Assembly (NCBI GenBank): GCA_030425485.1
Contig: JAUIAM010000028.1
Span: forward strand, 1 to 46,099
Source of the DNA: Verrucomicrobiia bacterium
GTDB lineage: Bacteria > Verrucomicrobiota > Verrucomicrobiia > Opitutales > Cerasicoccaceae
Length of the DNA stretch: 46,099 nucleotides
Direction: 5' to 3'
A program made the position numbers and the translations under genes. How positions within the stretch are numbered: the first letter of the stretch is position 1; each line of letters opens with the position of its first letter. The notes under the pieces are model-generated. The model did no database searches. It saw only the letters and a program-made list of their open reading frames with translations, and was not told where the DNA came from. Of the stretch, positions 5,061 through 27,669 are shown one piece after another.

Positions 5061-5096
5061 CGGCGGGATGCCTTAGCGTTACAGATTATCCCGCCG
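5061..5096. promoter_or_regulatory. Perfect 9-bp inverted repeat between divergent genes
   Basis: CGGCGGGAT (5061-5069) and ATCCCGCCG (5088-5096) are perfect reverse complements separated by 18 bases. They lie in the 145-bp gap between the divergent ABC exporter and carbonic anhydrase genes. This could be an operator or a hairpin in the exporter's leader. Confidence 0.45.
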
Positions 5097-5167
5097 CCTG
5101 GCCACTGCATGCAAGCGCAAAGTATCGCATTGCCTGCATGGGGTGCAGGTGTCCATGATAGCAGGCT

Positions 5168-8002: not shown

Positions 8003-8059
8003 CCGCCTCTACCTTTGGCATTGACGGCAGTGGATTATGGGCAGAATCTATCCAGCATT

Positions 8060-8755
8060 ATGAAACTACCTGTCGTATTGTTGACATTATTCGTTCCATT
8101 TCTGCTCCAGGCAGAATCCCAGCTCGAGACCGAGCTCGCCAAGGTAAAGACGGCCATCTCCGAGGCCGACGATATTCTGGCCGCCAATCAGAAGGACCCG
8201 AAGACCGCCATCCCTCACGAGGTGCTGGCTGAATCCGAGGCCGTCCTCATCGTAAAGCTCGAAGGTGCTGCTATTGGCATCGGCGGTTATGGTGGCACGG
8301 GTATTGCCATGGTGAACAACATCGATAACTGGAGCCCGCCCGCGGTCTACAGCGTTACCGGTGGTAGCCTCGGCATCGAGATCGGTGGCACGGAAACGGA
8401 CCTGATCGCCGTTTACATGAACAAGAAGTCGCTCAAGTCCCTCTACGACAAGTCCATCAAGTGGGGCGTTGGCCTGAGCGTTAAGGCTGGCCCGATCGGC
8501 GGCACCGCATCTGCTAACCAGTGGAAGGACGCCGACATCCTCGTTTACCGCGTCTACAAGGGCATCAAGCTGGGTGTCTCCTTCAGTGGTGGCAGCCTTG
8601 ACTTCAATGAAGAGCTCAACGCTGCTCTCTACGAAGAGCCGAGCATCACGGCTAACGACATCTTTGGCCTGCGCGTGCCGATGCCTGCCGAGGCCAAGGA
8701 CATCACCGATGAGCTGCGCAAGCTCTCCTACGAAGACAGCTCCCTGTCCAAGTAG
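8060..8755 (+). CDS. Secreted SYLF-domain (Ysc84-like) lipid-binding protein
   Basis: A 231-aa protein with an N-terminal signal peptide ([20 protein letters not shown]). The rest matches the SYLF/Ysc84 fold: a helical lead-in ([18 protein letters not shown]), then [25 protein letters not shown] and a glycine-rich beta domain through [24 protein letters not shown] proteins bind phosphoinositides in eukaryotes. In bacteria they are secreted or periplasmic and their role is unsettled, with membrane association or phospholipid binding the usual proposal. I start at the ATG at 8060 because upstream in-frame codons would precede the signal peptide with polar sequence. A strong terminator follows the stop. 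Confidence 0.85.
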
Positions 8756-8781
8756 TAAGCGGCTCAAAAGCACTTTTTACG

Positions 8782-8809
8782 ACCCGTCGGTACTCCCGGC
8801 GGGTTTTTT
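8782..8809 (+). terminator. Rho-independent terminator after the SYLF gene
   Basis: ACCCGTCGG (8782-8790) pairs with CCGGCGGGT (8796-8804) through nine pairs including one G-U, around a five-base loop. A run of six T follows. It lies 27 bases after the SYLF stop and separates that gene from gltX. Confidence 0.85.
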
Positions 8810-8921
8810 ATTTGAAGTTCCTCCCGGTTGGGATGAAGTAGTTGCCTTTGGAGATGCAGGCGTGGTTGCCATTGCCGCCACATCAGCATCCCGTCTGAAT
8901 AGTTTTAACCGAATAGCACCC

Positions 8922-10286
8922 ATGTCCCAAGTCCGCGTCCGATTCGCTCCCAGCCCCACCGGTTTCTTCCACATCGGCAGTGCCCGCACGGCTCTGTTTA
9001 ACTGGCTGTACGCCCGCCATACTGGTGGCGCCTTTGTCCTGCGTATCGAGGATACGGATACAGAGCGCAACACGCCCGAGGCCCTCCAGGCTCTGCTCGA
9101 CGGTATGCGCTGGCTCGGGCTCGATTGGGACGAAGGCCCGGAGGTCGGTGGCGACTACGGCCCGTATTTCCAGAGTGAGCGTCAGGCGATTTACGAAGAG
9201 TATCTGGCCAAGCTGACCGCGGCGGGGCGTACTTACGAAAAAGACGGGGCGGTTTACTTTAAGCTGATCGGTGAGCGTTACACCGAGTTTGACAAGTACA
9301 AGAACGCCGAGCTGGAGAAGGTTCGCACCGAGCCTGTCGTGGTGGAGGATGCTATCCGCGGTCGGGTCGAGCGTGCAGTGGAGCAGGACTTCGTCATCCG
9401 CCGCAGTAACGGCGACTTTGGTTTCCACTTCGTCAACGTGGTGGACGATATCTGTATGGCCATCACGCACGTCATCCGGGGCGAGGATCACCTCTCTAAC
9501 ACCGCGCGCCACGTCGAGCTCTACCGCGCTTTCGGCGTCACCCCGCCCGTGTTTGCCCACATCCCGCTCATCCTGAAGAGCGACGGCAAGGGCAAGATGT
9601 CCAAGCGCGAATCCGGTGCCTTGATCGAGGAGTACGTCAGCCGCCACTTCCTGGCTCAGGCCGTGCGCAACTACCTTTGCCTGCTGGGCTGGAATCCGAA
9701 GGACGACAGCGAGGTCATGCCCATTGCGGAGATCATCGAGCGCTTTGACTTTCCGGGAATCAACAAGGACGGCGCCCGCTTTGACGAGCAGAAGCTGGCC
9801 CACATCAACACCGAGTACCTGCGCGCGTTGCCGATCGAGACCTTTACCCACCTGGCCGCGCCGGTGTTGGTCAGTGCCGGGCTCATCGACGAGTCCACGG
9901 ATGAGGATTACCTGCAAAGCGTGCTCGCGCTCTGCCAGCCCAAGGCCCGCGACCTCGCGTCCATGCCGGAGCTGGTGGCGACGTTCTTCTCCGACACGGT
10001 AGAAGTCGACGCGGCTGCCCGCGAGCGGGTTTACAAGAAGGGCGACCCGGCGGCACGCCTGGGCGAGCTCTTGCCTGCGCTGGAAGCCCTCGATGACTGG
10101 TCCGAGGCCGGGCTGGAAGCCACCTTTGGCCAAGTGGCCGAAACCAACGGGCAGAAGCCGACCGCGTACTTCCCGATTACCCGACTGGCCGTCAGCGGTC
10201 AGGGTGGGGGCGTCCCGCTCTTCGGGCTGCTCGCAGTGCTGGGTAAGGAAAAGGTACTCTCGCGCGCTAAGGCGCACGGTGCTTGA
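8922..10286 (+). CDS. gltX: Glutamate--tRNA ligase
   Basis: A 454-aa class I aminoacyl-tRNA synthetase that charges tRNA-Glu with glutamate. The HIGH signature is in [20 protein letters not shown] (His17), followed by [12 protein letters not shown]. The KMSKS loop is [10 protein letters not shown] at about residues 222-231. [12 protein letters not shown] and [14 protein letters not shown] fit the junction with the helical anticodon-binding domain. The length is near the lower end of the family. A distinct glnS is also in this window, so this GluRS is probably discriminating, though that is an inference. I start at the ATG at 8922, which places the HIGH motif at the usual distance. The reading frame is open much further upstream, but that part overlaps the SYLF gene and its terminator. 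Confidence 0.95.
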
Positions 10287-10299
10287 GCTTGCATTTGAT

Positions 10300-10324
10300 C
10301 ACGCAAAGACGCGAAGGCGCAAAG
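10300..10324 (+). repeat. Single forward copy of the periodic intergenic repeat
   Basis: CACGCAAAGACGCGAAGGCG followed by CAAAG, 14 bases after the gltX stop. It matches the copies at 3137, 20651 and elsewhere. No clear reverse partner was found in this gap. Confidence 0.6.
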
Positions 10325-10414
10325 TCAATGAGGTAGGGTTGATGCTTGTATTAATCAGCGGCAAAAAAATATGCCTTTCATCAAGAAAGGGATCCAGATG
10401 CGCAGCATTTAGGG

Positions 10415-10433
10415 TAAAGGGCTGCGCCCTTTA
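10415..10433. terminator. Perfect hairpin between convergent gltX and antiporter genes
   Basis: TAAAGGGC (10415-10422), loop TGC, GCCCTTTA (10426-10433). The right arm contains the stop codon of the minus-strand antiporter gene. There is no long T run, so it may instead belong to the short three-base-loop hairpins seen in other gaps. Confidence 0.5.
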
Positions 10434-11573
10434 GTCGAAGATGAGCATGAGGTAGGCGAAGAAGAGGACGAGGTGCACGGCGCCCTGGAGGAGGTTTGTG
10501 CGTACGCTGGAGAAGTTGATCGCAGCGACGAGGATGGAGAGCGAGAGCAGGACTATTTCCGGTGTCTCCAGGCCGAGGTCGAGTCGCTTGCCGGTGGCCA
10601 GGCTAACCACGAGCACGGCGGGAATGGTCAGCCCAATGGTGGCCAGGGCGGAGCCGAGGGAGATGTTTACGGTGCGCTGGAGGTTGTTGGAGAGCGCGGC
10701 CTTGATCGCGCCCATGCCCTCCGGTGAGAGCACGAGGATGGCCACGAGGAAACCGCCGAGGGCCTGCGGGGCGTTGAGTACGGAGATGCCGTGGTCGACC
10801 AGTCCGGCCATTTTTTTCGAAAGCAGCACGATGGGCAGCATGCTTAGAAATAAGAAGAGGGCGTGAAAGCCGGTTGAGCGGATGGTCAGGCTGCCGTGGT
10901 CGTCGTGGCCGCCGGGGGCTTCGCCTACGCCGGGCTGGGTAAAGAACTTCCGGTGGCGGGTGCTCTGCATGGCCAGAAAAATACCGTAGAGCCCGAGCGA
11001 CATGACGGTAAGAAAGATGGCCATGAGGGGAGTCACGGCGCCGCCGGGGGCGGAGTTGGTAAAGCGGGGCAGGATGAGCCCGAGTCCGGCCAGGGGCACG
11101 ATGACAGAGAGGTAGGTGTTGGCTCCTTGCAGGTTGTACTCCTGTTCCCGGTGTTTCCAGCCGCCCGCCAGCAGGGTGATGCCGAGCATGCCGTTGAGCA
11201 CGATCATGAGCACGGAGAACATCGTGTCGCGGGCGAGGGCGGGATTCTCGCCCCCGGTGAGCATGACCGCGGTAATCATGACGACCTCAATGCTGATGAC
11301 GGAGAGGGTCAGGATGAGCGTGCCGTAGGGCTCGCCGAGCTTGATGGCGAGGCAGTCGGCGTGTTTGACCACTCCGAAGGCCAGCCAAAGCATGATGGCA
11401 AAGAGCCAGAGAAAGAGGCCGCCGAAGATCAGCGGGTTATGCAGCCGTTCAAGCCAACCGCTGCCAAAGGCCAGGAACAGCACCGTGGTTGCAGCACCGA
11501 AGAGGAGCGATTTTTCTTCGCGCAGGATGCTGCGGGGTGGTGTCGCGTGGTGGGCTTCGTGCGTGTCACTCAT
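10431..11573 (-). CDS. ChaA-like calcium/sodium:proton antiporter
   Basis: A 380-aa inner-membrane protein with about 11 hydrophobic segments and a His-rich N-terminus (SDTHEAHHATPP). The sequence VVKHADCLAIKLGEPYGTLILTLSVISIEVVMI, near residues 65-97, closely matches the first alpha repeat of ChaA-type Ca2+:cation antiporters, including the GEPYGT motif and the Glu in the membrane. A second, related stretch (VAILVLSPEGMGAIKAALSNNLQRTVNISLGSALATIGLTIP), near 280-320, carries the matching acidic residue. Such proteins extrude Ca2+, Na+ or K+ in exchange for protons. The ion cannot be told from sequence. I use the ATG at 11573. A TTG at 11612 would add 13 polar residues. Confidence 0.85.
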   Translation of the reverse strand: MSDTHEAHHATPPRSILREEKSLLFGAATTVLFLAFGSGWLERLHNPLIFGGLFLWLFAIMLWLAFGVVKHADCLAIKLGEPYGTLILTLSVISIEVVMITAVMLTGGENPALARDTMFSVLMIVLNGMLGITLLAGGWKHREQEYNLQGANTYLSVIVPLAGLGLILPRFTNSAPGGAVTPLMAIFLTVMSLGLYGIFLAMQSTRHRKFFTQPGVGEAPGGHDDHGSLTIRSTGFHALFLFLSMLPIVLLSKKMAGLVDHGISVLNAPQALGGFLVAILVLSPEGMGAIKAALSNNLQRTVNISLGSALATIGLTIPAVLVVSLATGKRLDLGLETPEIVLLSLSILVAAINFSSVRTNLLQGAVHLVLFFAYLMLIFD

Positions 11574-11660
11574 GTTGTGAGGGAAGGCTAAGCGAGGATA
11601 TTGACACCTCAAGCTTCAATCGGGCTTGCGCACGCGTTACTGAGCAATAGTCTGCGAGGT

Positions 11661-12353
11661 ATGCAACGTTTTCTCCTCTCCACCCGTTCCCTGACTCTCG
11701 GCTTACTGTTTTCGCTCACACCGCTGCTTTCGCAAGCCAAGCCCAACGACGCATCCGTCTACCTGAATACGGATAAGATCAACGTGGAGCGCATCATGCC
11801 CGCTGCGCCTCTAGCTGATTCTCAGACTCAGGCAGAGGACATGGCAGTCATGCTCTGGATACAGCAGGTGCGCACGCCAGAGCAGATCGCCACAGCCTAC
11901 CAGTACTCCGACTTAAGCATCGAGCTGTACATCGACATCATCGCGGCTGATCTGGAAAAAGATTGGAAGCCCGAGACGGTTAGGCACATGTTTGACGAGG
12001 TCACGACCTTGATCTACCCGCTGGTCATGGAGGCGAAGGACAAATACGGGCGTGTTCGTCCCTACGGAGAAAACCTCGCCATCCAGCCCTGTGTACCGCT
12101 GGAGGAGACGACTTCTTACCCGAGTGGTCACTCCACCTATGGCCTGCTCTTTGCCTATCTGTTGGCTGACATGATGCCCCAGCATAAGGAGGCACTGATC
12201 GAGCGCGGCAAGCTGATCGGCACCTGCCGGGTGATCAGTGGTGTCCATTATCCCAGCGACGTCCTGGCCGGGCAGCGACTGGGCACGGCCCTGTCGGAGG
12301 AAATCCTCGCGGGCAAGAAGTGGGAGTACTGGAAGCAGTTGGCCAAGAAGTAG
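11661..12353 (+). CDS. Secreted PAP2-family acid phosphatase (class A-like)
   Basis: A 230-aa protein with a signal peptide (MQRFLLSTRSLTLGLLFSLTPLLSQAK). The three-part PAP2 phosphatase signature is present: KDKYGRVRPYGE (Lys, Arg, Pro), SYPSGHSTYG, and CRVISGVHYPSDVLAG (Arg, nucleophile His, Asp). The Ser that normally comes just before the Arg of the third motif is replaced by Cys. The resemblance to PhoN-type non-specific acid phosphatases points to periplasmic release of phosphate from organic phosphoesters. Lipid phosphatases of the same superfamily are membrane proteins, and this one has no transmembrane helices beyond the signal. It diverges from the antiporter gene, with 87 bp between starts. 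Confidence 0.87.
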   Translation: MQRFLLSTRSLTLGLLFSLTPLLSQAKPNDASVYLNTDKINVERIMPAAPLADSQTQAEDMAVMLWIQQVRTPEQIATAYQYSDLSIELYIDIIAADLEKDWKPETVRHMFDEVTTLIYPLVMEAKDKYGRVRPYGENLAIQPCVPLEETTSYPSGHSTYGLLFAYLLADMMPQHKEALIERGKLIGTCRVISGVHYPSDVLAGQRLGTALSEEILAGKKWEYWKQLAKK

Positions 12354-12423
12354 GGCGATCGGGCTCTGATTGTGAAATGGGTTGGACATCGCGGCGGCTT
12401 TGTTACTGAGTAAACGTTTTGCC

Positions 12424-14100
12424 ATGAGCGAGACGACCGAACAGGAAAACAAGCCCCTCGATTTTATCCGTCAAATGATCGCCGACGACGTTGCGGCGGG
12501 CAAGCACGACGGACGCGTCCACACGCGCTTTCCCCCGGAGCCCAACGGCTACCTGCAGATCGGTCACGCCAAGGCGGTGTGCCTGAACTTCGGCATCGCG
12601 GAGGAGTTTGGCGGCAAGTGCAACCTGCGCTTTGACGATACCAACCCGGAGAAGGAGAGCGACGAATTTGTCCGCGCCATCCAGGAGGACATCCAGTGGC
12701 TGGGCTTTAAGTGGGACAAGCTCTGCTTCGCCAGTGAGTACTTTGAACAGCTCTACACCTGGGCCGAACAACTGATCGAAAAAGGCCTGGCCTACGTCGA
12801 CCAGCAATCTCCCGAGGAGATGAAGCTCAATCGCGGCACGCTGACTGAGCCGGGCACAAACAGCCCCTACCGTGGGCGTCCAGCCGAGGAAAGTCTCGAT
12901 CTGTTTCGCCGTATGCGGGCGGGGGAGTTTGACGACGGAGCGATGGTCCTGCGGGCCAAGATCGACATGGCCGCCCCCAACATGAACCTGCGCGACCCGG
13001 TCATGTACCGCATCAAGCGCATGCATCACCACCGCACGGGCGACAAGTGGTGCATTTACCCAAGCTACGACTTTACCCACGGCCAGAGCGATTCGCTGGA
13101 GGGCATCACGCACTCGCTGTGCTCGCTGGAGTTCGAAGATCACCGTCCGCTTTACGACTGGTTTATCGAAAAGCTCGGAATCTTCCCTTCCAAGCAAACC
13201 GAGTTCGCCCGCCTGAACCTCAACTATACCGTCGTTAGCAAGCGGAAGCTGCGCACGCTGGTCGAGGAGGGGTTCGTCTCCGGTTGGGATGACCCGCGCA
13301 TGCCGACGCTCTCCGGCATGCGTCGCCGGGGCGTCCCTGCTGCCGCTGTCCGCAACTTTATCGACAAGGTCGGCTTGACCAAGTTTAACTCCACCAGCGA
13401 CCTGGCCCTGCTGGAACACGCCGTGCGCGATGTGCTCAACCGCACGGCCCCGCGCCGTATGGCGGTGCTCGACCCGATCGAGCTCGTCATCACCAACTGG
13501 CCCGAGGGTGAAGTCGTCGAAGTCGATGCGGTCAACAACCCCGAGGACGATTCCGCAGGGACGCGCAAGGTACCCTTCAGCGGGCGCCTCTACATCGAAC
13601 GCGAGGACTTCCGCGAGGAGGCCAACAAGAAGTATTTCCGCCTGAAGCTAGGGGGCGAGGTGCGCCTGCGCTACGCCTATATTATCAAAGCCGAATCGGT
13701 CGAAAAGGACGCTGAGGGGAACGTCGCCCGTGTGCTCTGCACGGCCGACCTTGACACGTTGGGCAAGCAGCCGACCGACCGTAAGGTCAAGGGCGTGATC
13801 CACTGGTTAAGTGCCGAGCATGCGGCCAAGGCCGAGGTGCGGCTCTTCGATCGCCTTTTTTCCGTAGAAAAGCCTGACGGGGACAAGGAGCGGCCCTTCA
13901 CGGATTTCGTCAACCCCGAGTCGCTCACCACGACCGAGGCATATATCGAGCCCGGGCTGGCCACGGCCGAAGCCGGGGAAACGGTGCAGTTTGAGCGTAC
14001 GGGCTACTTCTGCCCGGATAGCAAGGACCACGTCCCGGGCCAACAGCCAGTCTATAACCGCACGGTCACACTCCGCGACTCCTGGGCCAAAAAAGACTAG
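12424..14100 (+). CDS. glnS: Glutamine--tRNA ligase
   Basis: A 558-aa class I synthetase, close to the 554 residues of the E. coli enzyme. The signature [20 protein letters not shown] carries the HIGH motif, [10 protein letters not shown] follows, and the KMSKS-equivalent is [11 protein letters not shown] near residue 268. The long C-terminal beta-barrel anticodon domain (from about 340) is intact through [18 protein letters not shown] and [10 protein letters not shown]. The enzyme charges tRNA-Gln directly, so this organism need not depend only on the GatCAB amidation route for Gln-tRNA. An earlier in-frame start at 12382 is possible, but the ATG at 12424 fits the family. Confidence 0.95.
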
Positions 14101-14432
14101 AAGGGCATAGCCCTCACCCGTGATTCTGCGGATCACTATTTTAGGTCTGGGCCCAGGCCGCAGCGGACGGCCCCAGGCAGCCGTCCCTACCAACATCTCA
14201 TCAATCATAGATGGAAACGGTATTAGTTGCGCTTGTAGAGCGGCGGAGGCTTAGCCTCGCGGGCGGATTCAATACCGTGTGACTTTTGGTGGAGGGACCT
14301 TGTAGAGACGAGGCACTGTGGGCTAATCCGGACTGCTTCTGTCGGAATAAAATTTGATAGTGAAACTCACTCTCAGGGGTTAGGGTTGCGAATCAATCTC
14401 ATTAGCAAATGCGTTTAAACCCGCATTATTGC
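14101..14432. other. Non-coding gap with several small hairpins
   Basis: I see no gene in this gap after glnS. It holds short perfect hairpins: AGGGC-ATA-GCCCT (14102-14114), GTGAT with ATCAC (14120-14136), GGACGGC with GCCGTCC (14165-14186) and GAGGC-TTA-GCCTC (14246-14258). The one at 14120-14136 is followed by an AT-rich stretch and could end glnS transcription. From about 14340 the sequence becomes AT-rich and leads into the promoter of the small Cys-rich gene. Confidence 0.5.
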
Positions 14433-14460
14433 TTGGAAAGTGGGATTTCTGTGCTAGATT
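14433..14460 (+). promoter_or_regulatory. Predicted promoter of the small Cys-rich protein
   Basis: TTGGAA (14433-14438), a 16-base spacer and TAGATT (14455-14460) with an upstream TG, i.e. an extended -10. The 12-mer CTGTGCTAGATT here recurs exactly in front of the PEP-CTERM-like gene at 20826-20837. Confidence 0.5.
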
Positions 14461-14487
14461 AGTCTCATTAAAGAAAAGGAAAGGATC

Positions 14488-14688
14488 ATGACTATGGAAA
14501 CCCAAACAATTGCTAAAACAGCCGCTTGTGCTAAGTGTGCTTACTGGAATAAACAGAGTGACAGTGAAGGTGAATGCCGTCGCAATGCCCCTCAATCGGT
14601 GGTCTTCGCCGTTGACGAAGATACCAAGTTCGAGACGCGCTTCCCGGTAACCGCCGCAAATGACTGGTGCGGTGAGTTCAAGGCCTAA
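14488..14688 (+). CDS. Small cysteine-rich protein, 66 aa
   Basis: A 66-aa protein without a signal peptide. Its four cysteines are arranged as CAKC near residues 14-17, GECR near 30 and DWCGEF near the C-terminus. The pattern, with FPVTAANDWCGEF at the end, recalls short bacterial proteins of unknown function that probably bind a metal or iron-sulfur cluster. That role is an inference from the cysteines. It has its own predicted promoter, a strong ribosome binding site (AAAGGAAAGGATC before the ATG) and a strong terminator, so it is a free-standing and probably well-expressed gene. An ATG two codons later is an alternative start. Confidence 0.8.
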   Translation: MTMETQTIAKTAACAKCAYWNKQSDSEGECRRNAPQSVVFAVDEDTKFETRFPVTAANDWCGEFKA

Positions 14689-14706
14689 CTGGCCCGTTAC
14701 TCTCAT

Positions 14707-14735
14707 AGGGGCTCACGCAAGTGGGCCTCTTTTTT
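14707..14735 (+). terminator. Rho-independent terminator with GNRA tetraloop
   Basis: A 10-pair stem (two G-U pairs) runs from A14707-C14716 to G14721-T14730 around the loop GCAA, followed by a run of T to 14735. It starts 19 bases after the stop of the small Cys-rich gene. Confidence 0.87.
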
Positions 14736-14785
14736 ACGGATTTTACTTGCGATTGCGTCTCAAATGCATTCTTGTGCGCATCGAT

Positions 14786-15178
14786 ATGGACGAGCACTTC
14801 GAAAATGACATCCTGGGCCCGCTTAGCCGCTCCTTTTACCGGCAGGCCGATGAGCTCCTGGATCTGCGCGAAGCCGCGCTGACTAAAGCCCATCCGGGGC
14901 GCTGTGTGTCCTGCTACTTTAAGCTCTTTAGTTCGGCTGACGGTATGTCGGTAGCCAAGCTCGACGCCCTGCGTCGCTGGCTGGAGCGGAACCTCATCAT
15001 CGAGGCGCGCGATGATTCCGATCAGGTGCTGGAGAAAATGCCGGTTTGCCTGGACGAGGAAGGTGATCTCGAAGATTACTGCCGCCGCCTGTCCATGGAG
15101 GTGCTGAACAACCGCGTGTACCCGGCGGAGCGCATTGAGTTGCGTTTCAATTTCAAGGACGCCACGTTGGCGGCCTAA
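14786..15178 (+). CDS. Unknown 130-aa cytosolic protein upstream of a Fur-family gene
   Basis: I do not recognise this 130-aa acidic, mostly helical protein. It begins MDEHFENDILGPLSRSFYRQ and includes a GRCVSCYFKLFSS segment with two cysteines near residues 38-41, then KLDALRRWLERNLIIEARDD and YCRRLSMEVLNNRVYPAERIELRF. There is no signal peptide or membrane segment. I chose the ATG at 14786 because sequence further upstream runs through the terminator of the preceding gene. The TAA stop is nine bases before the Fur-family start and forms part of its ribosome binding site (TAAGGAG). The two are therefore an operon, and a role linked to metal or peroxide response is a guess by association. Confidence 0.65.
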   Translation: MDEHFENDILGPLSRSFYRQADELLDLREAALTKAHPGRCVSCYFKLFSSADGMSVAKLDALRRWLERNLIIEARDDSDQVLEKMPVCLDEEGDLEDYCRRLSMEVLNNRVYPAERIELRFNFKDATLAA

Positions 15179-15187
15179 GGAGCGTCT

Positions 15188-15682
15188 ATGAGCGCGACTT
15201 CGGACACAAACGATAGCCTGAAAGAGCAGGCCTTCGACTACTGGCGCTCGAAAGGGCGGGGCATTACCGCCGTGCGCAAAATCATGTGTGACGTCATTTT
15301 CGAGACGAACGAGACCTTTAACGCGGATCAACTGCTGGCCCGCGTCCGGGCGGTGGATAAGGCCGTTTCGCTTTCAACCGTTTACCGAAACCTGCACGAT
15401 CTCGTGGAGGCCGAGGTGCTCTATGAGCTGGAGGGAGCCGACGACAAGCGTGTCTTTGCCGTGGCCAGCAGCGATAACAACGGCTCTAGCCACATCGTCT
15501 GTCGGGATTGCAAGCAGGTCATCCCGATTGAAAACCCCTGCCTGAGCATTCGCGAGAGCGCATTGGCCCGCCAGAAGGGATTTAGTCCCAAGCGGATCAG
15601 CCTGCGTCTGGAAGCCAGCTGCGACGAGCTCGGTGCGACTGGCCACTGTAAAAACCACGAGGCCAAAGACAAGGTGGAGTAG
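15188..15682 (+). CDS. Fur/PerR-family transcriptional regulator
   Basis: A 164-aa protein with the Fur layout. The N-terminal winged helix holds KGRGITAVRKIMCDVIFE and the recognition helix SLSTVYRNLHDLVEAEVLYEL near residues 62-82. A dimerisation/metal domain follows with SHIVCRDCKQVIPIENPCL near 101-119, giving one CxxC. A second cysteine pair (SCDELGATGHC) lies near the C-terminus, so a structural zinc site is likely. The usual HHDH run is reduced to a single SH before the CxxC, so the regulatory site differs from classic Fur. Iron, zinc or peroxide sensing cannot be decided. An excellent AAGGAG lies six bases before the ATG. Confidence 0.86.
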   Translation: MSATSDTNDSLKEQAFDYWRSKGRGITAVRKIMCDVIFETNETFNADQLLARVRAVDKAVSLSTVYRNLHDLVEAEVLYELEGADDKRVFAVASSDNNGSSHIVCRDCKQVIPIENPCLSIRESALARQKGFSPKRISLRLEASCDELGATGHCKNHEAKDKVE

Positions 15683-15710
15683 GTATCGCCTTCGGTCTGG
15701 GCCGTGTATC

Positions 15711-15799
15711 CAAACCGCGAAACGAGGAGACGAAGGGCATTTTAGATCTATTCTGTCCGTGTGTGGCGCAGACCTATTGCGCTCAGCGTCCTGCGGTTA
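15711..15799. repeat. Inverted pair of degenerate periodic repeats
   Basis: A degenerate forward copy (CAAACCGCGAAACGAGGAGA, continuing to about 15737) is followed by a reverse copy at 15779-15799 (GCGCTCAGCGTCCTGCGGTTA). The latter is nearly the reverse complement of the copy at 5736. It lies between the convergent Fur-family gene and the CNB-kinase gene. Confidence 0.5.
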
Positions 15800-19550: not shown

Positions 19551-20540
19551 CTAGTCGCCGAAGCCGTCCGGGTGGGCGGAGTGCCAGGCCCAGGCGGTTT
19601 CGACGATCTTTTCCACGGAGTCAAATTCGACCTTCCAGCCCAGTTCGGACTTGGCCTTGGAGGAGTCGGCGTAGAGGGCGGGGGGATCGCCCGCGCGGCG
19701 CTCAACTTCGACGATCTTGACCTGCTTGCCGGAGACCTTTTCCACCGCCTCGATGACTTCGCGCACGCTGTAGGGGGTGCCGGTGCCGAGGTTGTAGAAG
19801 CAGCCCGTGCCGGGGGTGGCCAGCTTATCAAAGACGGCGATGTGGGCGCGGGAGAGGTCGTCCACGTGGACGTAGTCACGCAGACAGGTGCCGTCCGGCG
19901 TGTCGTAGTCTGTGCCAAAGATTTTGATGTTCTCGCGCTTGCCGAGGGCGGCATCGATCACGAGCGGGATAAGGTGCGTCTCAGGGTTGTGGTCTTCGCC
20001 GATGGAGCCGTCTGTGGCTGCTCCGGCGGCGTTAAAGTAGCGGAAAGCGGCAAAGCTCAGGCCGTCGGAGTGGGCGAGGGCCTTGAGGGCGTTTTCGACG
20101 TCGAGTTTGGTCTGGCCGTAGGGGTTGATGGGGGCCTGCGGCATGGTCTCGACGATGGGCAGGCTGGGCGGTACGCCGTAGGTGGCGCAGGTGGAGGAGA
20201 AGACGAACTTTTTCACGCCCTCGGCCAGCATGGCTTCGAGCAGGCGCAGGGTGGCAATAAAGTTGTTATCGTAGTACTTGAGCGGCTTTTCGACCGACTC
20301 GCCCACGTAGGCAAAGGCGGCAAAGTGCATGACGAGCTCGATTTTTTCCTCGGAGAGGATCTTGCGCATGGCGTCGACATTGCCCAGATGGTCCGTGTAG
20401 AACGGTATCTCCGGTGCCACGGCCTTGCGGTGGCCAAAGACAAGGTTGTCAACCACGACCGGTTCGTGCCCGGCGGCGACGAGCTGTCGCACGCAGTGAC
20501 TGCCAATGTAACCGGCTCCCCCTACAACGAGTACTTTCAT
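19551..20540 (-). CDS. galE: UDP-glucose 4-epimerase
   Basis: A 329-aa extended short-chain dehydrogenase/reductase that interconverts UDP-glucose and UDP-galactose with bound NAD. The NAD loop is VLVVGGAGYIGSHCVRQL at residues 3-20. The catalytic Ser/Thr lies in FVFSSTCATYG near 115 and the Tyr-Lys pair in INPYGQTKLDVEN near 139. RYFNAAGA, LRDYVHVDDL and the substrate-binding NLGTGTPYSVREVI complete the family pattern. Galactose units for lipopolysaccharide or exopolysaccharide are the likely use, fitting the nucleotidyltransferase further along. I take the ATG at 20540, which puts the NAD loop at the N-terminus. A start 12 codons earlier has no family support. Confidence 0.93.
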   Translation of the reverse strand: MKVLVVGGAGYIGSHCVRQLVAAGHEPVVVDNLVFGHRKAVAPEIPFYTDHLGNVDAMRKILSEEKIELVMHFAAFAYVGESVEKPLKYYDNNFIATLRLLEAMLAEGVKKFVFSSTCATYGVPPSLPIVETMPQAPINPYGQTKLDVENALKALAHSDGLSFAAFRYFNAAGAATDGSIGEDHNPETHLIPLVIDAALGKRENIKIFGTDYDTPDGTCLRDYVHVDDLSRAHIAVFDKLATPGTGCFYNLGTGTPYSVREVIEAVEKVSGKQVKIVEVERRAGDPPALYADSSKAKSELGWKVEFDSVEKIVETAWAWHSAHPDGFGD

Positions 20541-20650
20541 GCGCGGCAGCTTGGCGGGCGAAAAGGACGAGCGCAACCCGGAAGCCGCAGATATTTTATC
20601 GGCCTAGACAGTGTGGGGTGCTTCTCAGCTTTATTTTTGTCTGGAATTTT

Positions 20651-20846: not shown

Positions 20847-21470
20847 ATGTTTAAAACGCTCAACCTTACCCTGCGTCTGCCGCTTCTGGTCGCCGTAATG
20901 TTCATTGCTGCGGCAGCTCCGGCTTCCGCCCTTGTCTTGGTCATCAACACGACGGCGCAGACCATCTCGCTCTCGGGTAACGACCTCTTCGTTGACCTGA
21001 CCGGTGATACGGAGTACCCGTATTGGCTGCGCTTTCGCACCAACACGAACACGACCGGGTCCTACGGTGGTGCTTACATCGACGCGGGTTTTGCCACGGT
21101 CAACGGGGTGGGGAATATCGACGACAACGGCGCTGTCGAGTCGGACATCAATATCAAGTCCAATGGTCGCGTGCTGGACCTGACCCTGGCCTTTCCCACC
21201 GATCAGGAAACCTTGGAGGGCTATTTGATCGCGGGCACACCTTTTTACTACGGAGACTGGGGCACTTTTACTAATTATCTCGGTGACGGCTCGCTCGTGA
21301 ACGGTACGACCTTGTCGCCCTACATGCCCAATCCAGAGCAGACGTTTCCGCTGGACGAGAATCCGACCATCACGGTGCAGGTCGTGGTGCCGGAGGTGAA
21401 GTCTGCGGCCCTGCTGCTCGGGCTCGGGGCCGCCGGGGTACTGGCCTTGCGTGGCCGTCGCCGAGTTTAG
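20847..21470 (+). CDS. Secreted protein with PEP-CTERM-like sorting tail
   Basis: A 207-aa exported protein. The signal peptide covers residues 1-29 (ending IAAAAPASA). The mature part is rich in Thr, Asn, Gly and Asp with beta-strand character. The C-terminus has VVVPEVKSAALLLGLGAAGV, then LALRGRRRV: a short VPE motif, a hydrophobic helix and an Arg cluster. This is the tripartite form of PEP-CTERM signals, which exosortase cuts, although the strict V-P-E-P is degenerate here. Such proteins are usually tied to exopolysaccharide production. The function of the mature part is unknown. No exosortase gene is in this window. The start has no ribosome binding site and a strong terminator follows. 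Confidence 0.8.
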   Translation: MFKTLNLTLRLPLLVAVMFIAAAAPASALVLVINTTAQTISLSGNDLFVDLTGDTEYPYWLRFRTNTNTTGSYGGAYIDAGFATVNGVGNIDDNGAVESDINIKSNGRVLDLTLAFPTDQETLEGYLIAGTPFYYGDWGTFTNYLGDGSLVNGTTLSPYMPNPEQTFPLDENPTITVQVVVPEVKSAALLLGLGAAGVLALRGRRRV

Positions 21471-21672: not shown

Positions 21673-22917
21673 ATGGATACCTCAACCCGCATAGTTATTA
21701 CCGGCATTGGGCTTACAGCCCCCAATGGCAATACCCTGGCCGAGTACCGCAAGAACCTCCTCGACGGCGTGGCCCGCGTGCAGAACATCGAGGTCCGTCA
21801 CATGGGCCAAATGCACGCCGGGGTGTGCGACTTTGACCCGCTCAAGTACCAGAAACGCAAGGAGCTGCGCAACGGCACCCGCGTGGGCAGCGTGTCCATC
21901 TACTGCGCCCGCGAGGCCGTGAACGACTGCGGGATCGACTTTGAGGCGCTGGATAAGAGCCGGATCGGCGTCTACCTCGGCGTGACCGAGCACGGCAACG
22001 TCGAAACGGAGAACGAAATCCACAACATTTCGCAGTTTAACTACGACACGAAGTTCTGGACTCACCACCATAACCCCCGCACCGTGGCCAACAACCCGGC
22101 GGGCGAGGTGACCATGAACATGGGCATCACCGGGCCGCACTACACCATCGGGGCGGCCTGCGCTGCGGGTAATGCCGGGCTCATCCAGGCCGCGCAAATG
22201 CTCATGCTGGGCGATTGCGACTTCGCTCTGGCCGGAGGTGTCAGCGAGAGCATCCACACTTTCGGTATTTTTGCCGGGTTTAAAAACCAGGGCGCACTGG
22301 CCCACCACGAAGACCCGAATCAGGCCAGTCGGCCCTTTGACCAGGACCGCAACGGCATCGTGGTCAGCGAGGGCGGATGTATCTACACCCTTGAGCGGCT
22401 CGAAGACGCCCAGGCTCGCGGGGCGAACATCATCGGCGAGCTGGCCGGATGGTGCATCAACTCCGACGCCACGGACGCCGTGTTGCCCAACCCGGAGCGT
22501 CAGGCCCAGTGTATGAACATGGCCCTGAAGCGTGCCGGCATGCGCCCGCAGGACATCGGCATCGTCAGCACCCACGCCACAGCCACGCCGCAGGGCGACA
22601 TCCAGGAAATCAAGGCCGTGCGCGAAGTTTTTAGCGATTGCCCCAACACTTGGGTGAACAACACCAAGAGCTACATCGGCCACGCCATGGGCGCGGCGGG
22701 CGCGCTCGAGTTGGCTGGGAATTTACCCTCGTTTGAGGACGGAATCGTCCACCCAACGATCAATGTGGATAATCTTGACCCGGCATGCGAATTCCCCACG
22801 CTGGTCCTGAACAAACCGAAATCGGTGGGCAGGGTTGACAGCATCCTCAACAACTCTTTCGGTATGCTCGGAATCAATTCCGCTCTCATCATTAAGCGCT
22901 ACGAGCCCAACACGTAA
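21673..22917 (+). CDS. Beta-ketoacyl-ACP synthase (FabF-like)
   Basis: A 414-aa condensing enzyme with the complete KAS II catalytic triad: Cys163 in TIGAACAAGNAG, His301 in VSTHATATPQGD and His337 in KSYIGHAMGAAGALE. It catalyses the decarboxylating condensation of malonyl-ACP with an acyl chain. It differs from housekeeping FabF in its long middle insert (ETENEIHNISQFNYDTKFWT near 111-130), and it sits with its own ACP and a CrtI-like oxidoreductase rather than with fabD/fabG/acpP. A specialised fatty acid or polyene role is therefore likely. Fifteen bases separate its stop from the ACP start, so they are co-transcribed. The alternative is that this is the cell's ordinary FabF. Confidence 0.88.
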   Translation: MDTSTRIVITGIGLTAPNGNTLAEYRKNLLDGVARVQNIEVRHMGQMHAGVCDFDPLKYQKRKELRNGTRVGSVSIYCAREAVNDCGIDFEALDKSRIGVYLGVTEHGNVETENEIHNISQFNYDTKFWTHHHNPRTVANNPAGEVTMNMGITGPHYTIGAACAAGNAGLIQAAQMLMLGDCDFALAGGVSESIHTFGIFAGFKNQGALAHHEDPNQASRPFDQDRNGIVVSEGGCIYTLERLEDAQARGANIIGELAGWCINSDATDAVLPNPERQAQCMNMALKRAGMRPQDIGIVSTHATATPQGDIQEIKAVREVFSDCPNTWVNNTKSYIGHAMGAAGALELAGNLPSFEDGIVHPTINVDNLDPACEFPTLVLNKPKSVGRVDSILNNSFGMLGINSALIIKRYEPNT

Positions 22918-22932
22918 CTACAACGACGATTT

Positions 22933-23196
22933 ATGACTAAGGACGACATCAAGCAGATCGTGCTCGATATTATCGCGGAGATCGCCCCCGACGAAGATCT
23001 CTCCGACGTAAAGCCCGAGGTACGGCTGCGCGACCAGTTGGAGCTGGATTCGATGGATTTTCTCGACATTGTAATGGAGCTGCGCAAGCAGTATGGCATC
23101 GAAGTGCCCGAAGCCGATTACCCGGAGCTGGCCTCGCTCGATAGCTGTGCCAATTACCTGGAGCCCAAGTTTGCCGCTCTCGGCACCAAGGCCTAA
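22933..23196 (+). CDS. Acyl carrier protein
   Basis: An 87-aa acidic protein with the ACP four-helix pattern. The phosphopantetheine attachment site is Ser40 in QLELDSMDFLDIV (DSM in place of the common DSL). Helix I is KDDIKQIVLDIIAEIAP, and the later part contains IEVPEADYPELASLDSCANYL. It would carry acyl chains for the ketosynthase just upstream and perhaps present them to the oxidoreductase downstream. The spacing to the oxidoreductase is 58 bp. It diverges from housekeeping AcpP sequences (which have DSLDTVELVM), in keeping with a dedicated pathway. Confidence 0.9.
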   Translation: MTKDDIKQIVLDIIAEIAPDEDLSDVKPEVRLRDQLELDSMDFLDIVMELRKQYGIEVPEADYPELASLDSCANYLEPKFAALGTKA

Positions 23197-23254
23197 GCGT
23201 TTTTTCCACATGGCGTGTGTGCAAACGCGCGGTTGTTTCTGAACGGGGTTCATC

Positions 23255-24643
23255 TTGGCCGAGCGTTACGACAGCATTATTATCGGAGCCGGATTTGCCG
23301 GGCTTGCCGCAGGTATTCGTCTGGCCCAGTTTCAGGAGCGGGTGCTTATCCTGGAGTCGCACTTCATCCCCGGCGGGTTGAACTCGTACTACTTTCGCGG
23401 GGGCAAGGATAAGCTCTTTAACACCGGGCTACACACGGTAACGAACTTCAACGCGAAGAACCGACGTTGGGGTTTTGGGCTGATCTGCCGCAACCTCGGT
23501 ATCCCCGCGTCGGAGTTTTCCCTCGTGCCGCCCAGTCGCCCCTCACTGATTGAGGTGCCCGGTGCGGGGCTGGATTTTAACAACGATCTGGATGTCCTGC
23601 GTGGGTCCATAGCGGAGCGTTTTCCGGCTGAAGTGGAGGCCTTCGATCGCTTTTGCACGGACATGAGCCAGCTTGAGGATGTCCAGCGCCTTTACGGCAT
23701 CGGCAGCCGCACCTGGCTGGAGGAGTATTTTCGCGACCCTGTCCTGATGGACCTGTTGGAGCTGCCGGTTTACATCTATGGCGGCTATAGCGAAAAGCAG
23801 ATTGATGCGGCGACGTTCAGCACGGTATTTCGCTCGATTTTCCTCGAAGGCTGTAGTTCGCCGCCGGACATCAAGCACATCCTCGACCTGCTCATCAAGC
23901 GCTTCAAATCGCTCGGGGGCGAACTCAAGATGCGCAAGCGCGTGGCCCGGATCGACTGCGAGGGTGGGGCATTTCGCGCGGTGGAGTTGGCGGACGGCAC
24001 GCGCATTGAGGCGGACCGCTGCCTGTCCTCGGCGGGATTGTGTGAGACGGGCCAGCTCGCCGGAGAAGTCTGGGGCCGCACCTGTCCGCTGTCCGTGTTT
24101 GAGACGGTGGTATCAGTCAACGCCCCCATGACGGACTTGCAGGCCGACTACACGCTGCAGCTCATTTCGGAGCAAGAGCGCTTCGACTGGAAAGCACCGG
24201 ATGAGCGGGGCGCGTTCGACCACCTCACGCTGGCAGCCTCGGCCTTCTACGATTTTGCCGAAGAGCCCCACGCCAAGCACTTCAAGATCGGCTGTTTCCA
24301 AAAAGGCGAGCTCTGGCTCGGGCTGGATGAGGAAACCTATCAGCGTGAAAAAAATCACCTCGAAGAGCGCCTGCTTCAAGTCCTGCTCGCGCGATACCCG
24401 GGGCTGCGAGATGTGGAGGCGGAGCACTGCGAATCGCTGACTCCCCGCACGGTAGTGACTTACACCAGCCATCTCAACGGCGGGATTTATGGTGGGGCAG
24501 AGAAAACTTTTGACGGCACCACAGCCGTACAGGACCTCTTTATCATCGGGAATGACCAGGGCGGCATCGGTATCATGGGTGCGCTGACCAGCGGAGTGGT
24601 TGTGTCCAACTTTCAAGTTATCCTCAAGTCAGCCAGAACCTAG
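23255..24643 (+). CDS. CrtI/CrtISO-like FAD-dependent oxidoreductase
   Basis: A 462-aa flavoprotein of the phytoene desaturase / carotenoid isomerase superfamily. The dinucleotide-binding site is SIIIGAGFAGLAAGIRLAQ at residues 7-25, followed by ESHFIPGGLNSYYFRGG. The C-terminal FAD motif is DLFIIGNDQGGIGIMGALTSG near 430-450. The family desaturates, isomerises or saturates polyene chains and some members act on other lipids. Its place after a ketosynthase and ACP suggests an acyl-chain substrate, which is an inference. The start is TTG at 23255, required because no in-frame ATG lies before the FAD motif, and it gives the usual short N-terminus. Confidence 0.83.
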   Translation: MAERYDSIIIGAGFAGLAAGIRLAQFQERVLILESHFIPGGLNSYYFRGGKDKLFNTGLHTVTNFNAKNRRWGFGLICRNLGIPASEFSLVPPSRPSLIEVPGAGLDFNNDLDVLRGSIAERFPAEVEAFDRFCTDMSQLEDVQRLYGIGSRTWLEEYFRDPVLMDLLELPVYIYGGYSEKQIDAATFSTVFRSIFLEGCSSPPDIKHILDLLIKRFKSLGGELKMRKRVARIDCEGGAFRAVELADGTRIEADRCLSSAGLCETGQLAGEVWGRTCPLSVFETVVSVNAPMTDLQADYTLQLISEQERFDWKAPDERGAFDHLTLAASAFYDFAEEPHAKHFKIGCFQKGELWLGLDEETYQREKNHLEERLLQVLLARYPGLRDVEAEHCESLTPRTVVTYTSHLNGGIYGGAEKTFDGTTAVQDLFIIGNDQGGIGIMGALTSGVVVSNFQVILKSART

Positions 24644-24924: not shown

Positions 24925-27669
24925 ATGAGTTCTTTTGGCGATAATCAATTGCTAGGTTTGGCAAAAGTCATGCCCTGGCCCTACCTCGTCTGCGACAGAG
25001 AGGGAAATATCGCATATGCAAATCGCCATTTTCAGCGTTTATTGGAGTCTGATCACGCCTTGGTAGAGGGTCCTCCCGTGACGGAGCTTTTCGAGTGTGC
25101 CGATGGTGGTTTGACGGTGACCGAGTCGCTGGAGCAAACGGTTCCCGGGCGCGCAAGCCATGGTAAGTGGCAGTTGGTCAACGCTTACGAAAAGCTGCTC
25201 TTCGAGGTCATGGTCGAGCAAGACCCGGACAATAAGGATTTTCTTTGGGTGATCGTGTTGGAAAACCCGGTGATCAATGACCAGATGGTGCTGGGGAGCC
25301 AGAGCGAGCTGCGCCTGTTGCAGATCCTCATGGACCACACCCTGGATTACGTTTACTTCCAGGACATCCGTGGGCATTTCATCATCGCCAACCGCGCCTT
25401 TCAGCGGCTGATCCGCACGCCGCACCCCGGCTACGAGATTGGCCGCAAGCTCAGCGATTTTGTCGATACGAAGACCGCCACCGCCTCGCAGGAGACGGAC
25501 CACGAGGTGCTCACCGCGCTCCAGCCGGTCATCAACAATGTCAACTACTTTCAGCTCAAGGACGGCCCGGGGCTGTGGCTCCAGTCGACCAAGATGCCGG
25601 TGTTTGACAACAGCCGTAAGCGGCTAGGTGTTGTTTGCGTGAGCCGCAACATCTCCGAGACGGTCGAGCACGAGAAAAAGCTGCGCGATGCCATGACGCG
25701 GGCCGAGCAGGCCAGCCGGGCCAAGAGCGACTTCCTGGCCAACATGAGCCACGAAATCCGCACCCCGATCAACGGCATCATCGGCATGGCCGAGCTTTCC
25801 CTCGATTCGGAGCTCGACCCCGAGCACGAGAAGTACGTGCAGACCATCCTCAATTGCAGCAATACCTTGCTCTCGCTCATTAACGACCTGCTCGATTTTT
25901 CCAAGATCGAGTCCGGTCAACTGGAGCTGGAGGAAATCAATTTCAACCTCGTGTCCACCATCGAGGAAACGCTCGACCAGTTCGTGGGCCAGACCCGCGA
26001 GAAGGGCATCGAGCTGGCCGCGCGGCTCGATCCAAAGCTCCCGGCGCACGTGCGCGGGGACCCTATCCGCTTCCGCCAAATCCTGAGCAACCTTATCAGC
26101 AATGCGGTAAAATTTACCGACGAGGGCGAGATCGTAGTCAGCGTCAATACGCTGCACAAAAAAGACGGCCTCATCCACATCCGGCTCTCCGTTGTCGATA
26201 CGGGGATCGGCATCCCCGAGTCGCGCCAGGCCGCGATATTCGACAGCTTTACTCAGGCCGATTCCTCCACCACACGCAAGTATGGTGGCACCGGACTGGG
26301 GCTTTCCATCTGTCGGCAGTTAGCGGAAAAGATGGGTGGAACGATTACTGTGAGCAGCGAGGTCAACCAGGGGTCGACCTTCCACGTGGAGCTCCCCCTG
26401 CGTGCGCTGCGCAAGCGTGAGATTTTGCCCCATAAGCAGCTCGACCAGCTCAAGGGCATGCGCGTGCTCGTCATCGACGACAACAAAACCAACCGCATGA
26501 TCCTCTCCGAGTTATGTCACAACTGGGGCTTTCAGCCCAGCGTGGCGGAGAGTGGCATGAAGGGCCTGGAAATGCTCGACCGCGCCGCGGCCGACGATGA
26601 GCCGTACCAGCTCGTTATGCTCGACCAGCAAATGCCCAGCCTGAGCGGGCTTGAGGTGGCCAGCTTGATCTTTAACCGCCCCAAGCTGGAAGACGTAAAG
26701 ACGATTTTGCTCTCCTCGTCCCTCAATCAGCAAGAGGCCATGCGTGCGAGCGAGCTGGGCATCGAGCGCTTCCTGTCCAAGCCGATCAAACAGTCGGTTT
26801 TGATGGAGGTGATTTTGGAGATGTTTGACCTGCCCATCCCGGACAGAGGCGGCCGTGTTTCACGCGTGACTGATACGCGCTCGCCCTTCCAGCGCGAAAC
26901 CAAGATCGCCATGACACCGCTCAAGGTGCTTCTGGCCGAGGACAACCCGATCAATCAGGAGGTCACCGTGCGTCGGCTTAAAAAGCTCGGGCACGAGGTC
27001 AGCGTGGTGGAAAACGGGCTGCTCGCCGTCGAGGCTGCCCAGAGCGTGCGCTTTGACCTGATCCTCATGGATGTCCAGATGCCCGAGATGGACGGCATCG
27101 AGGCCACACGGCGCATCCGCCAATTTGAAACCGACAAGAACTACCGGACGACGATTGTGGCCATGACGGCGCGCGCGATGTCCAGCGACGAAGCCCTCTG
27201 TCTGGAAGCGGGCATGGATGGCTACATTGCCAAGCCATTCCGTGCGACGAAGTTGCAGTCCGTTCTTGAGAATATTTCCTGCGCACGCTCAAGTGTGCTC
27301 ATGAGCGAAAGCCAGTCCGGCGATCCCTCTGATCTGGCCGCGCTCTTTGCTGAGGCGGATGAAGACGATCGAGACGACTTGCGCGCGGCGGCAGAGATTT
27401 TCCTGCAAAACTACAAGGCTGATCTGGCGCGCCTGAAAGAAGCCTGGGAATACGGCGAGTTTTCCGAGCTCAACCACCGCGCGCATAGTATCAAGGGTGG
27501 AGCCGCTATTTTCCAGGCCTATCGCCTGCGACATCTGGCCGAAAGCCTAGAACTGGCCGCGCTCAACTCCGAGGCGGAAAATATCTCGCAATTCATCCCG
27601 GCTATCGAGGCGGAGCTGGAGCGCTTTGCCCAGCAATTGCGGGACTTTCTCTCAACGGGAAAAGTTTAA
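24925..27669 (+). CDS. Hybrid histidine kinase: PAS-PAS-HisKA-HATPase-REC-REC-HPt
   Basis: A 914-aa soluble kinase with all parts of a multistep phosphorelay in one chain. Two PAS-like domains come first (about 10-110 and 125-245). The H-box SHEIRTPINGIIG has its His near 276. The ATPase has NLISNAVKF near 389, DTGIGIP and GGTGLGLSI. Receiver 1 (about 515-635) has VIDDN and MLDQQMP (Asp near 567). Receiver 2 (about 670-795) has LAEDNPINQE and LMDVQMPEMDG (Asp near 715). The C-terminal HPt has NHRAHSIKGGAAIF with its His near 853. It resembles ArcB/BarA-type kinases without membrane helices, so it should sense a cytosolic signal such as redox state or a bound cofactor. The output regulator is not adjacent. 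Confidence 0.92.
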   Translation: MSSFGDNQLLGLAKVMPWPYLVCDREGNIAYANRHFQRLLESDHALVEGPPVTELFECADGGLTVTESLEQTVPGRASHGKWQLVNAYEKLLFEVMVEQDPDNKDFLWVIVLENPVINDQMVLGSQSELRLLQILMDHTLDYVYFQDIRGHFIIANRAFQRLIRTPHPGYEIGRKLSDFVDTKTATASQETDHEVLTALQPVINNVNYFQLKDGPGLWLQSTKMPVFDNSRKRLGVVCVSRNISETVEHEKKLRDAMTRAEQASRAKSDFLANMSHEIRTPINGIIGMAELSLDSELDPEHEKYVQTILNCSNTLLSLINDLLDFSKIESGQLELEEINFNLVSTIEETLDQFVGQTREKGIELAARLDPKLPAHVRGDPIRFRQILSNLISNAVKFTDEGEIVVSVNTLHKKDGLIHIRLSVVDTGIGIPESRQAAIFDSFTQADSSTTRKYGGTGLGLSICRQLAEKMGGTITVSSEVNQGSTFHVELPLRALRKREILPHKQLDQLKGMRVLVIDDNKTNRMILSELCHNWGFQPSVAESGMKGLEMLDRAAADDEPYQLVMLDQQMPSLSGLEVASLIFNRPKLEDVKTILLSSSLNQQEAMRASELGIERFLSKPIKQSVLMEVILEMFDLPIPDRGGRVSRVTDTRSPFQRETKIAMTPLKVLLAEDNPINQEVTVRRLKKLGHEVSVVENGLLAVEAAQSVRFDLILMDVQMPEMDGIEATRRIRQFETDKNYRTTIVAMTARAMSSDEALCLEAGMDGYIAKPFRATKLQSVLENISCARSSVLMSESQSGDPSDLAALFAEADEDDRDDLRAAAEIFLQNYKADLARLKEAWEYGEFSELNHRAHSIKGGAAIFQAYRLRHLAESLELAALNSEAENISQFIPAIEAELERFAQQLRDFLSTGKV

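Follow-up and report, generated by a model that had tools for sequence, protein, structure and literature searches.

A stretch of 46,099 nucleotides from a Verrucomicrobiia bacterium of the Cerasicoccaceae (contig JAUIAM010000028.1 of assembly GCA_030425485.1), hereafter the window, carries at positions 21673-24643 a row of three genes for a FabF-type beta-ketoacyl-acyl carrier protein synthase (KS), an acyl carrier protein (ACP) and an oxidoreductase of the CrtI/CrtISO superfamily (CRT1). Taken together, the results presented here indicate that this trio and a set of genes on a second contig of the same genome (C47) probably form a type II acyl-chain synthase, made of freestanding proteins, that feeds an Ole hydrocarbon pathway. 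The gene content, the co-occurrence of the parts among genomes of the phylum and, in some relatives, their contiguity as a row of eight genes were observed. An Ole pathway is in itself already known; what would be new is an Ole pathway with a freestanding acyl-chain synthase of its own.

The KS-ACP-CRT1 trio

The genome to which the window belongs comprises 3.8 Mb in 62 contigs. By analysis of open reading frames (ORFs) and of Pfam and NCBIfam matches, KS, ACP and CRT1 were confirmed as three consecutive ORFs, all on the + strand, where the original prediction (made from the letters of the window) had placed them. The KS gene (21673-22917) encodes 414 amino acids (aa) and matches the N- and C-terminal ketoacyl-synt families (4.4e-37 and 4.5e-28); as predicted, the enzyme is complete, with C163, H301 and H337, as well as K332, intact in alignment. 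The ACP gene (22933-23196, 87 aa, PP-binding 1.9e-9) follows after 15 bases and has its phosphopantetheine serine, the DSM serine of the prediction, at S40 in LELDSMDFLD. CRT1 (23255-24643, 462 aa) follows after a further 58 bases, starts with TTG, carries the flavin adenine dinucleotide (FAD) motif GAGFAG at residues 11-16, and matches Amino_oxidase (2.9e-9) and other FAD/NAD-binding families. None of the three proteins attained an equivalog cut-off of NCBIfam. KS scored 311 bits against fabF (TIGR03150, cut-off 494), and CRT1 scored 67 bits against the carotenoid isomerase model TIGR02730 (cut-off 587) and 37 bits against TIGR02734 (cut-off 238). With scores so far below the curated cut-offs, CRT1 is a member of the superfamily without a curated family.

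Four KS genes were detected in the genome, in the window, on C28 (the housekeeping gene, adjoining an ACP gene), on C17 and on C57, together with five PP-binding matches (E ≤ 0.1). The window ACP shares 28% identity with the housekeeping AcpP of the genome. Thus, the view that the KS and ACP of the window are not the housekeeping ones was upheld, and the reading of KS as the housekeeping FabF was rejected on its bit score and on the separate ACP-FabF pair of C28. Since all four KS proteins are encoded in frames of 412-420 aa, the genome holds no Pfa-type megasynthase (PfaA), and a Pfa-type polyunsaturated fatty acid (PUFA) synthase was ruled out. The KS of the window differs from the other three in the gate loop: residues 397-400 read GMLG in the window and GFGG in the three others. 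Among 20 aligned trio orthologues the loop was GMLG in 19 and GMVG in one, a residue pattern that would fit an unusual chain in the KS pocket.

CRT2, FabZ, FabI and the Ole genes

When CRT1 was used as a single-sequence query, only weak relatives were found in its own genome (best 2e-5). By profile search, the next best match after CRT1 itself was a second CrtI-like gene, CRT2, on C47 (5.6e-33). CRT2 (C47 541-2031) opens a row at the start of that contig, in which it is followed by FabZ (2103-2540), FabI (2545-3348), OleA (3352-4386) and an OleB-like gene (4390-5259), the last named by its position and by about 50% similarity to its counterparts. OleA scored 420 bits against NCBIfam NF006720, above the cut-off of 285, and its nearest solved chains were 3row and 3s21 (about 1.6e-69), which we take to be Xanthomonas OleA. 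Residues E97, C123, H271 and N301 are kept and presumably serve as the catalytic Glu, Cys, His and Asn. On C17, two genes about 2 kb apart are likely, judged by their best Ole-specific models, to be OleC and OleD, though both score under the cut-offs of these models. Thus, the trio is not the minimal three-gene form that had been proposed but part of an eight-gene set, with OleC- and OleD-like genes in addition.

Gene order in relatives

The order KS-ACP-CRT1-CRT2-FabZ-FabI-OleA-OleB on one strand was found in five of ten loci fetched from one family of relatives, f14 (L137, L141, L142, L143 and L149), with one additional ORF between CRT1 and CRT2 in L143 and L149; the f14 locus L146 ends within FabI. 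When 25 genomes of this family were sampled, KS, CRT1, CRT2 and OleA followed each other in this order on the same strand within 20 kb in 16 and within 12 kb in 14, and in the remaining nine the markers were farther apart or on several contigs. In other relatives the set is split into two to four pieces. The trio, CRT2 and FabZ-FabI-OleA-OleB form separate pieces in G019, and G028 has KS-ACP, CRT1, CRT2 and FabZ-FabI-OleA-OleB each apart; in G198 the trio stands apart from CRT2, FabZ-FabI and OleA-OleB, which lie within 15 kb. Among genomes of another class, G116 has KS-ACP, CRT1, CRT2 and OleA all apart, and G223 and G239 have OleA divergent beside the trio (loci L123 and L127) with CRT2 elsewhere.

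Within the order of the window's organism, 49 loci chosen for holding CRT1 or KS were compared, and KS-ACP-CRT1 were consecutive on one strand in 39, so the arrangement is more than chance. Five of the ten other loci have the genes apart or turned, and five have CRT1 with no KS in the stretch; four of these latter five lie at a contig end, and the fifth belongs to G028, which has its KS-ACP in a different one of the 49 loci. Identity to the counterparts in the order was 65-87% for KS, 69-93% for ACP and 30-69% for CRT1. The CRT1 proteins of the window and of loci L055 and L058, which represent the genus of the window and genus g3, are strongly diverged, and those of the other class form a group that leaves them out (support 99/98); the KS proteins of these loci, by contrast, fall among those of family members within the order. 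This pattern would suggest rapid change or replacement of CRT1 alone in these loci, on a tree that carries a long-branch warning. Seven loci of family f52, in the other class, have after KS-ACP a gene that belongs to a single group; the copy scanned (L117:6495-7250) encodes a ThyX-type thymidylate synthase.

Co-occurrence and joint loss

KS, CRT1, CRT2 and OleA were searched for in one and the same set of 288 genomes of the phylum, with a threshold of 1e-100 for KS orthologues (the weakest of the 78 matches was at 3.6e-171). By this approach, KS was found in 78 genomes, CRT1 in 78, OleA in 77 and CRT2 in 76. All four markers occurred together in 70 genomes, none in 205 and some in 13; the genomes are not independent, as the carriers represent a few clades, and Fisher p-values are not readable as probabilities. 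OleA was present in 75 of the 78 genomes with KS, and CRT1 and CRT2 occurred together in 73 of the 288. Among the KS carriers, 43 belong to the order of the window's organism and 35 to another class or classes of the phylum; no KS orthologue was found in the other orders of the same class in this sample.

Across the genus, the family and the order, 36 genomes were searched, that of the window among them, and CRT1 had exactly one match (E ≤ 1e-30) in 31. It was absent from five (G013, G015, G016, G025 and G034), and OleA was absent from six (G013, G015, G016, G024, G025 and G027), of which G024 is 64% complete. Both genes were missing together from four genomes of four families (one-sided Fisher 0.0012, n = 36).

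Neighboring genes and other clusters of the genome

Upstream of KS and divergent from it lies a gene for a GalE-type epimerase (19551-20576, - strand), which scores above its NCBIfam cut-off. Of 71 loci, 15 have a GalE gene in this upstream, divergent position within 6 kb of KS, and in 12 of those 15 the distance is no more than 250 bases. Between the two lies a gene for a short, secreted-looking protein (20847-21470) that ends in VPEVKSAALLLGLGAAGVLALRGRRRV; no family match was found for it, and we presume it to be PEP-CTERM-like. The next gene after the trio (24925-27669) encodes a hybrid histidine kinase with PAS, HisKA, two receiver and Hpt domains, and a kinase of this kind also stands 3' of the trio in members of the window's own family, f1 (L055-L058 and L062). 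No gene in the surroundings of the trio is generally kept in the loci compared.

A true CrtI (331 bits, cut-off 238) is encoded on C57 and a CrtB-like gene is located on C43. Thus, the statement that carotenoid genes are missing near the trio held for the parts of the window that were scanned, and such genes are present elsewhere in the genome. On C46, a single ORF of 776 aa (L020:7273-9603) joins an HpnD-like half, under its cut-off, to an HpnE half above its own, and represents fused hopanoid genes. A separate type II polyketide-like cluster of the same genome (L018, G000:C57:63001-83000, at 7910-15785 of the locus) includes a KS, a weakly matching KS-like partner of 352 aa, an AMP-binding protein, a tryptophan-halogenase-like FAD protein and an ACP.

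Proposed pathway

In the pathway that we propose, KS would lengthen chains on its own ACP, FabZ would dehydrate and FabI would reduce in some of the rounds, and the ketoreductase would probably be borrowed from the housekeeping fatty acid synthase (FAS). CRT1 and CRT2 would put in or move double bonds while the chain is bound to ACP. OleA would then take the completed and probably polyunsaturated acyl-ACP and condense two chains head to head, and OleD, OleC and OleB would convert the product to an internal long-chain olefin, for which C31:9 or a related hydrocarbon is a plausible candidate. Verrucomicrobia were reportedly among the bacteria tested for olefins by Sukovich and others in 2010, with C31:9 said to be the commonest product. 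A more specific proposal, which we advance tentatively as somewhat short of an even prospect, is that one KS, an ACP, FabZ, FabI and two CrtI-family flavoenzymes, which would introduce skipped double bonds into an ACP-bound chain without O2, constitute a freestanding type II PUFA synthase wired to OleA.

In the Pfa-fed pathway, the Pfa synthase passes a predicted 16:4 chain to OleA in the form of acyl-ACP, and 31:9 is the product (PMC6463001). Although no PUFA pathway is known in D. psychrophila, this bacterium produces C31:8 and C31:9, and its type II fatty acid synthase (FASII) clusters hold three phytoene-dehydrogenase-like genes (PMC2649909). The same hydrocarbon is made by Geobacter bemidjiensis, for which a Pfa-like type I cluster was suggested as the source (PMC3098273).

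Several observations weigh against the proposal. The p-values overstate the co-occurrence because the carriers follow few clades. Individual genomes break the association: G140 (99% complete) has KS, CRT1 and CRT2 without OleA, G034 (95% complete) has OleA without CRT1, G079 and G157 have only OleA (in a lower-scoring form), and G027 (95% complete) lacks OleA but carries KS-ACP together with a CRT1 that is truncated at the end of its contig. In the other class, CRT1 was found beside KS-ACP in only 2 of 22 loci. As for the later Ole steps, the best curated models of the OleB-like protein are haloalkane dehalogenases (under cut-offs), the OleC-like protein scored 523 bits against the olefin beta-lactone synthetase model (cut-off 900) and passes NF006754, a fatty acid CoA ligase family, and the OleD-like protein scored 424 bits for a cut-off of 580. 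FabZ and FabI of C47 may be partly housekeeping, and CRT1 and CRT2 could act after release of the chain, or as reductases. Finally, a Pfa-like type I cluster has been suggested as the olefin source in Deltaproteobacteria and Planctomycetes (PMC3098273), so such olefins may have a source other than the module in bacteria of other phyla.

Alternative explanations

The strongest competing explanation, which we regard as unlikely, is that the chains which the module feeds to OleA have a fixed length and are saturated, branched or monounsaturated, with CRT1 and CRT2 serving as reductases or as cis-trans isomerases that adjust one double bond instead of building a polyene. Gene context and co-occurrence would be the same under this explanation, and the location of FabI within the operon favors it. 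Likewise, the Ole enzymes of Xanthomonas and Stenotrophomonas use ordinary FAS chains (PMC6463001), the superfamily includes isomerases, and carotenoid isomerase ranked first or second among the NCBIfam matches of both CRT1 and CRT2. However, an Ole pathway fed by the FAS would, by extension from the same account (PMC6463001), need no KS, ACP or CrtI-like genes of its own, and the retention of CRT1 and CRT2 together in 73 of the 288 genomes speaks for repeated double-bond chemistry.

It is less probable still that the trio serves membrane phospholipids by an anaerobic route to unsaturated fatty acids, with use by OleA secondary. The near-universal, single-copy occurrence of CRT1 in the order (31 of 36), even in genomes of 0.9-2 Mb, would be expected of such a role, as would the three genomes that hold KS, CRT1 and CRT2 without OleA (G140, G214 and G312). 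By contrast, OleA accompanies KS in 75 of 78 genomes, and four families include genomes in which CRT1 and OleA are both missing.

The original prediction had linked the combination of FabF, ACP and CrtI-like genes to the ladderane lipids of anammox bacteria, and the trio might accordingly be a reduced, ladderane-type relative of the anammox cluster kuste3603-3608. Ten genomes identified with an anammox rRNA probe (four Brocadia, one Kuenenia and five Planctomycetota/Planctomycetia) were examined, and all ten had a CrtI-like match (E ≤ 1e-8; best 5e-50). Nine stretches of 15-20 kb were recovered, and the gene-by-gene listing made for four of them gave the order ACP-FabZ-FabF-FabF'-CrtI-like-radical SAM-like. 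In all four aligned stretches, the catalytic positions of FabF' are occupied by V, N, Y and E, which match the residues of Kuste3606 (PMC2649909). The protein encoded after the CrtI-like gene in these stretches has 485-492 aa, and one matches radical SAM/B12 models under their cut-offs.

Both gene sets combine an ACP, a FabF and a CrtI-like gene, and CRT1 and CRT2 are nearer to the CrtI-like protein of the anammox locus L261 (77 and 112 bits) than to the CrtI of their own genome (35 and 27 bits). By contrast, the trio has one KS and no FabF paralogue without Cys-His-His beside it, and there is no radical SAM/B12 gene 3' of CRT1, where the histidine kinase gene stands. No OleA was found in the nine anammox stretches at E ≤ 1e-3. 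In the KS tree (20 trio and 8 anammox rows), the KS of the trio forms its own clade with support of 100/100 and anammox outside, and in the CRT1 tree (14 CRT1 and 8 anammox rows) CRT1 does the same with support of 95/92, both with long-branch warnings. The anammox FabF of L261 is 31% identical to the trio KS, compared to 33% for the housekeeping FabF of the genome. Furthermore, ladderanes are described as known from no bacteria other than the anammox ones (PMC2649909). Taken together, the separate clades and the missing non-canonical FabF and radical SAM gene led us to set the ladderane link aside as very improbable. A remote tie among ACP-linked CrtI-like proteins is possible from these scores; the tree of CrtI-like proteins does not place the anammox proteins as sisters of CRT2 rather than of CrtO-like proteins, the branches being very long and the join doubtful, and the tie is not provable by trees because both are flagged for long branches.

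An aryl polyene cluster, the other link that had been suggested, comprises a KS with a chain-length-factor partner, a ligase and adjacent dehydratases. This reading was rejected: the trio has a single KS, and the nearest genes in the scanned part of the window ORFs encode GalE, the protein without a family match and the histidine kinase. That CRT1 is a carotenoid enzyme of the CrtISO or CrtI type lying by chance beside KS-ACP is hardly credible, for all its superfamily membership and the presence of a CrtB-like gene and a true CrtI in the genome, given its 67 bits for a cut-off of 587, the 331 bits over 238 of the CrtI on C57, and the presence and absence of CRT1 in step with KS, CRT2 and OleA. 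The findings that the original prediction had itself named as adverse were thus encountered in one part, carotenoid genes elsewhere in the genome, and not in the others, as CRT1 falls below the carotenoid families and KS and ACP are not the sole ones of their kind. Its broader idea of a dedicated lipid pathway, in which the CrtI-like enzyme belongs with the ACP rather than with carotenoids, gained support.

Relation to known systems and implications

Among the systems closest to the proposed one is the Pfa-fed OleABCD pathway of Shewanella and Photobacterium (PMC6463001), with which it shares OleA, the OleB-, OleC- and OleD-like proteins, a dedicated source of acyl-ACP beside the FAS and a predicted polyunsaturated chain. 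It differs in that this source consists of single proteins (KS, ACP, FabZ, FabI, CRT1 and CRT2) instead of a megasynthase and in that the Ole genes lie on two contigs. The FAS-fed OleABCD pathway of Xanthomonas and Stenotrophomonas has the Ole enzymes in common with it, whereas dedicated KS, ACP and CrtI-like genes are not described there in the available text of PMC6463001. Similar to the trio and its partners, kuste3603-3608 of anammox bacteria and the syntenic FASII clusters of D. psychrophila include ACP, FabF, FabZ and CrtI-like genes with a proposed action on acyl chains (PMC2649909, PMC4790861); the present set differs from the anammox cluster in that its KS and CRT1 fall into clades of their own, in the lack of a radical SAM gene and a non-canonical FabF beside the trio, and in its link to OleA. 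When produced in E. coli, kuste3336 and kuste3607 gave no lycopene (PMC4790861). CRT1 resembles CrtI, CrtISO and CrtD in superfamily, FAD-binding motif and length, and differs from them in belonging to no curated carotenoid family and in having fatty acid and Ole genes as partners.

Among the verrucomicrobial metagenome-assembled genomes (MAGs) of one study, oleABCD was reported only in Opitutae (PMC5673642), and oleC was reported in MAGs of the Planctomycetes-Verrucomicrobia-Chlamydiae group (PMC10176705). The 'ladderane' calls of antiSMASH reported in Verrucomicrobia (PMC8692599) may include sets like the trio. By literature search, with subscription journals mostly outside its reach, no paper that connects oleA of this phylum with a KS-ACP-CrtI combination was found among the matches listed. 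Neither was there a match on a phytoene-dehydrogenase-like enzyme in cinnamoyl-type II polyketide pathways, nor one that joined Kiritimatiell-, fatty acid and ladderane.

The combination of FabF, ACP and CrtI-like genes is by itself no pointer to ladderanes. The 2009 ladderane proposal raised the questions of how polyunsaturated hydrocarbons arise without Pfa and whether CrtI-like enzymes act on ACP-bound chains (PMC2649909), and the eight-gene set described here bears on both; it is co-inherited, lies in one row in some relatives and is compact enough for transfer to E. coli and assay. If the type II PUFA synthase proposed above is correct, it would be spread across at least two classes of one phylum, would explain how bacteria that lack Pfa can come by C31:9-type hydrocarbons, and would offer a working model for the CrtI-like genes of anammox bacteria and D. 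psychrophila.

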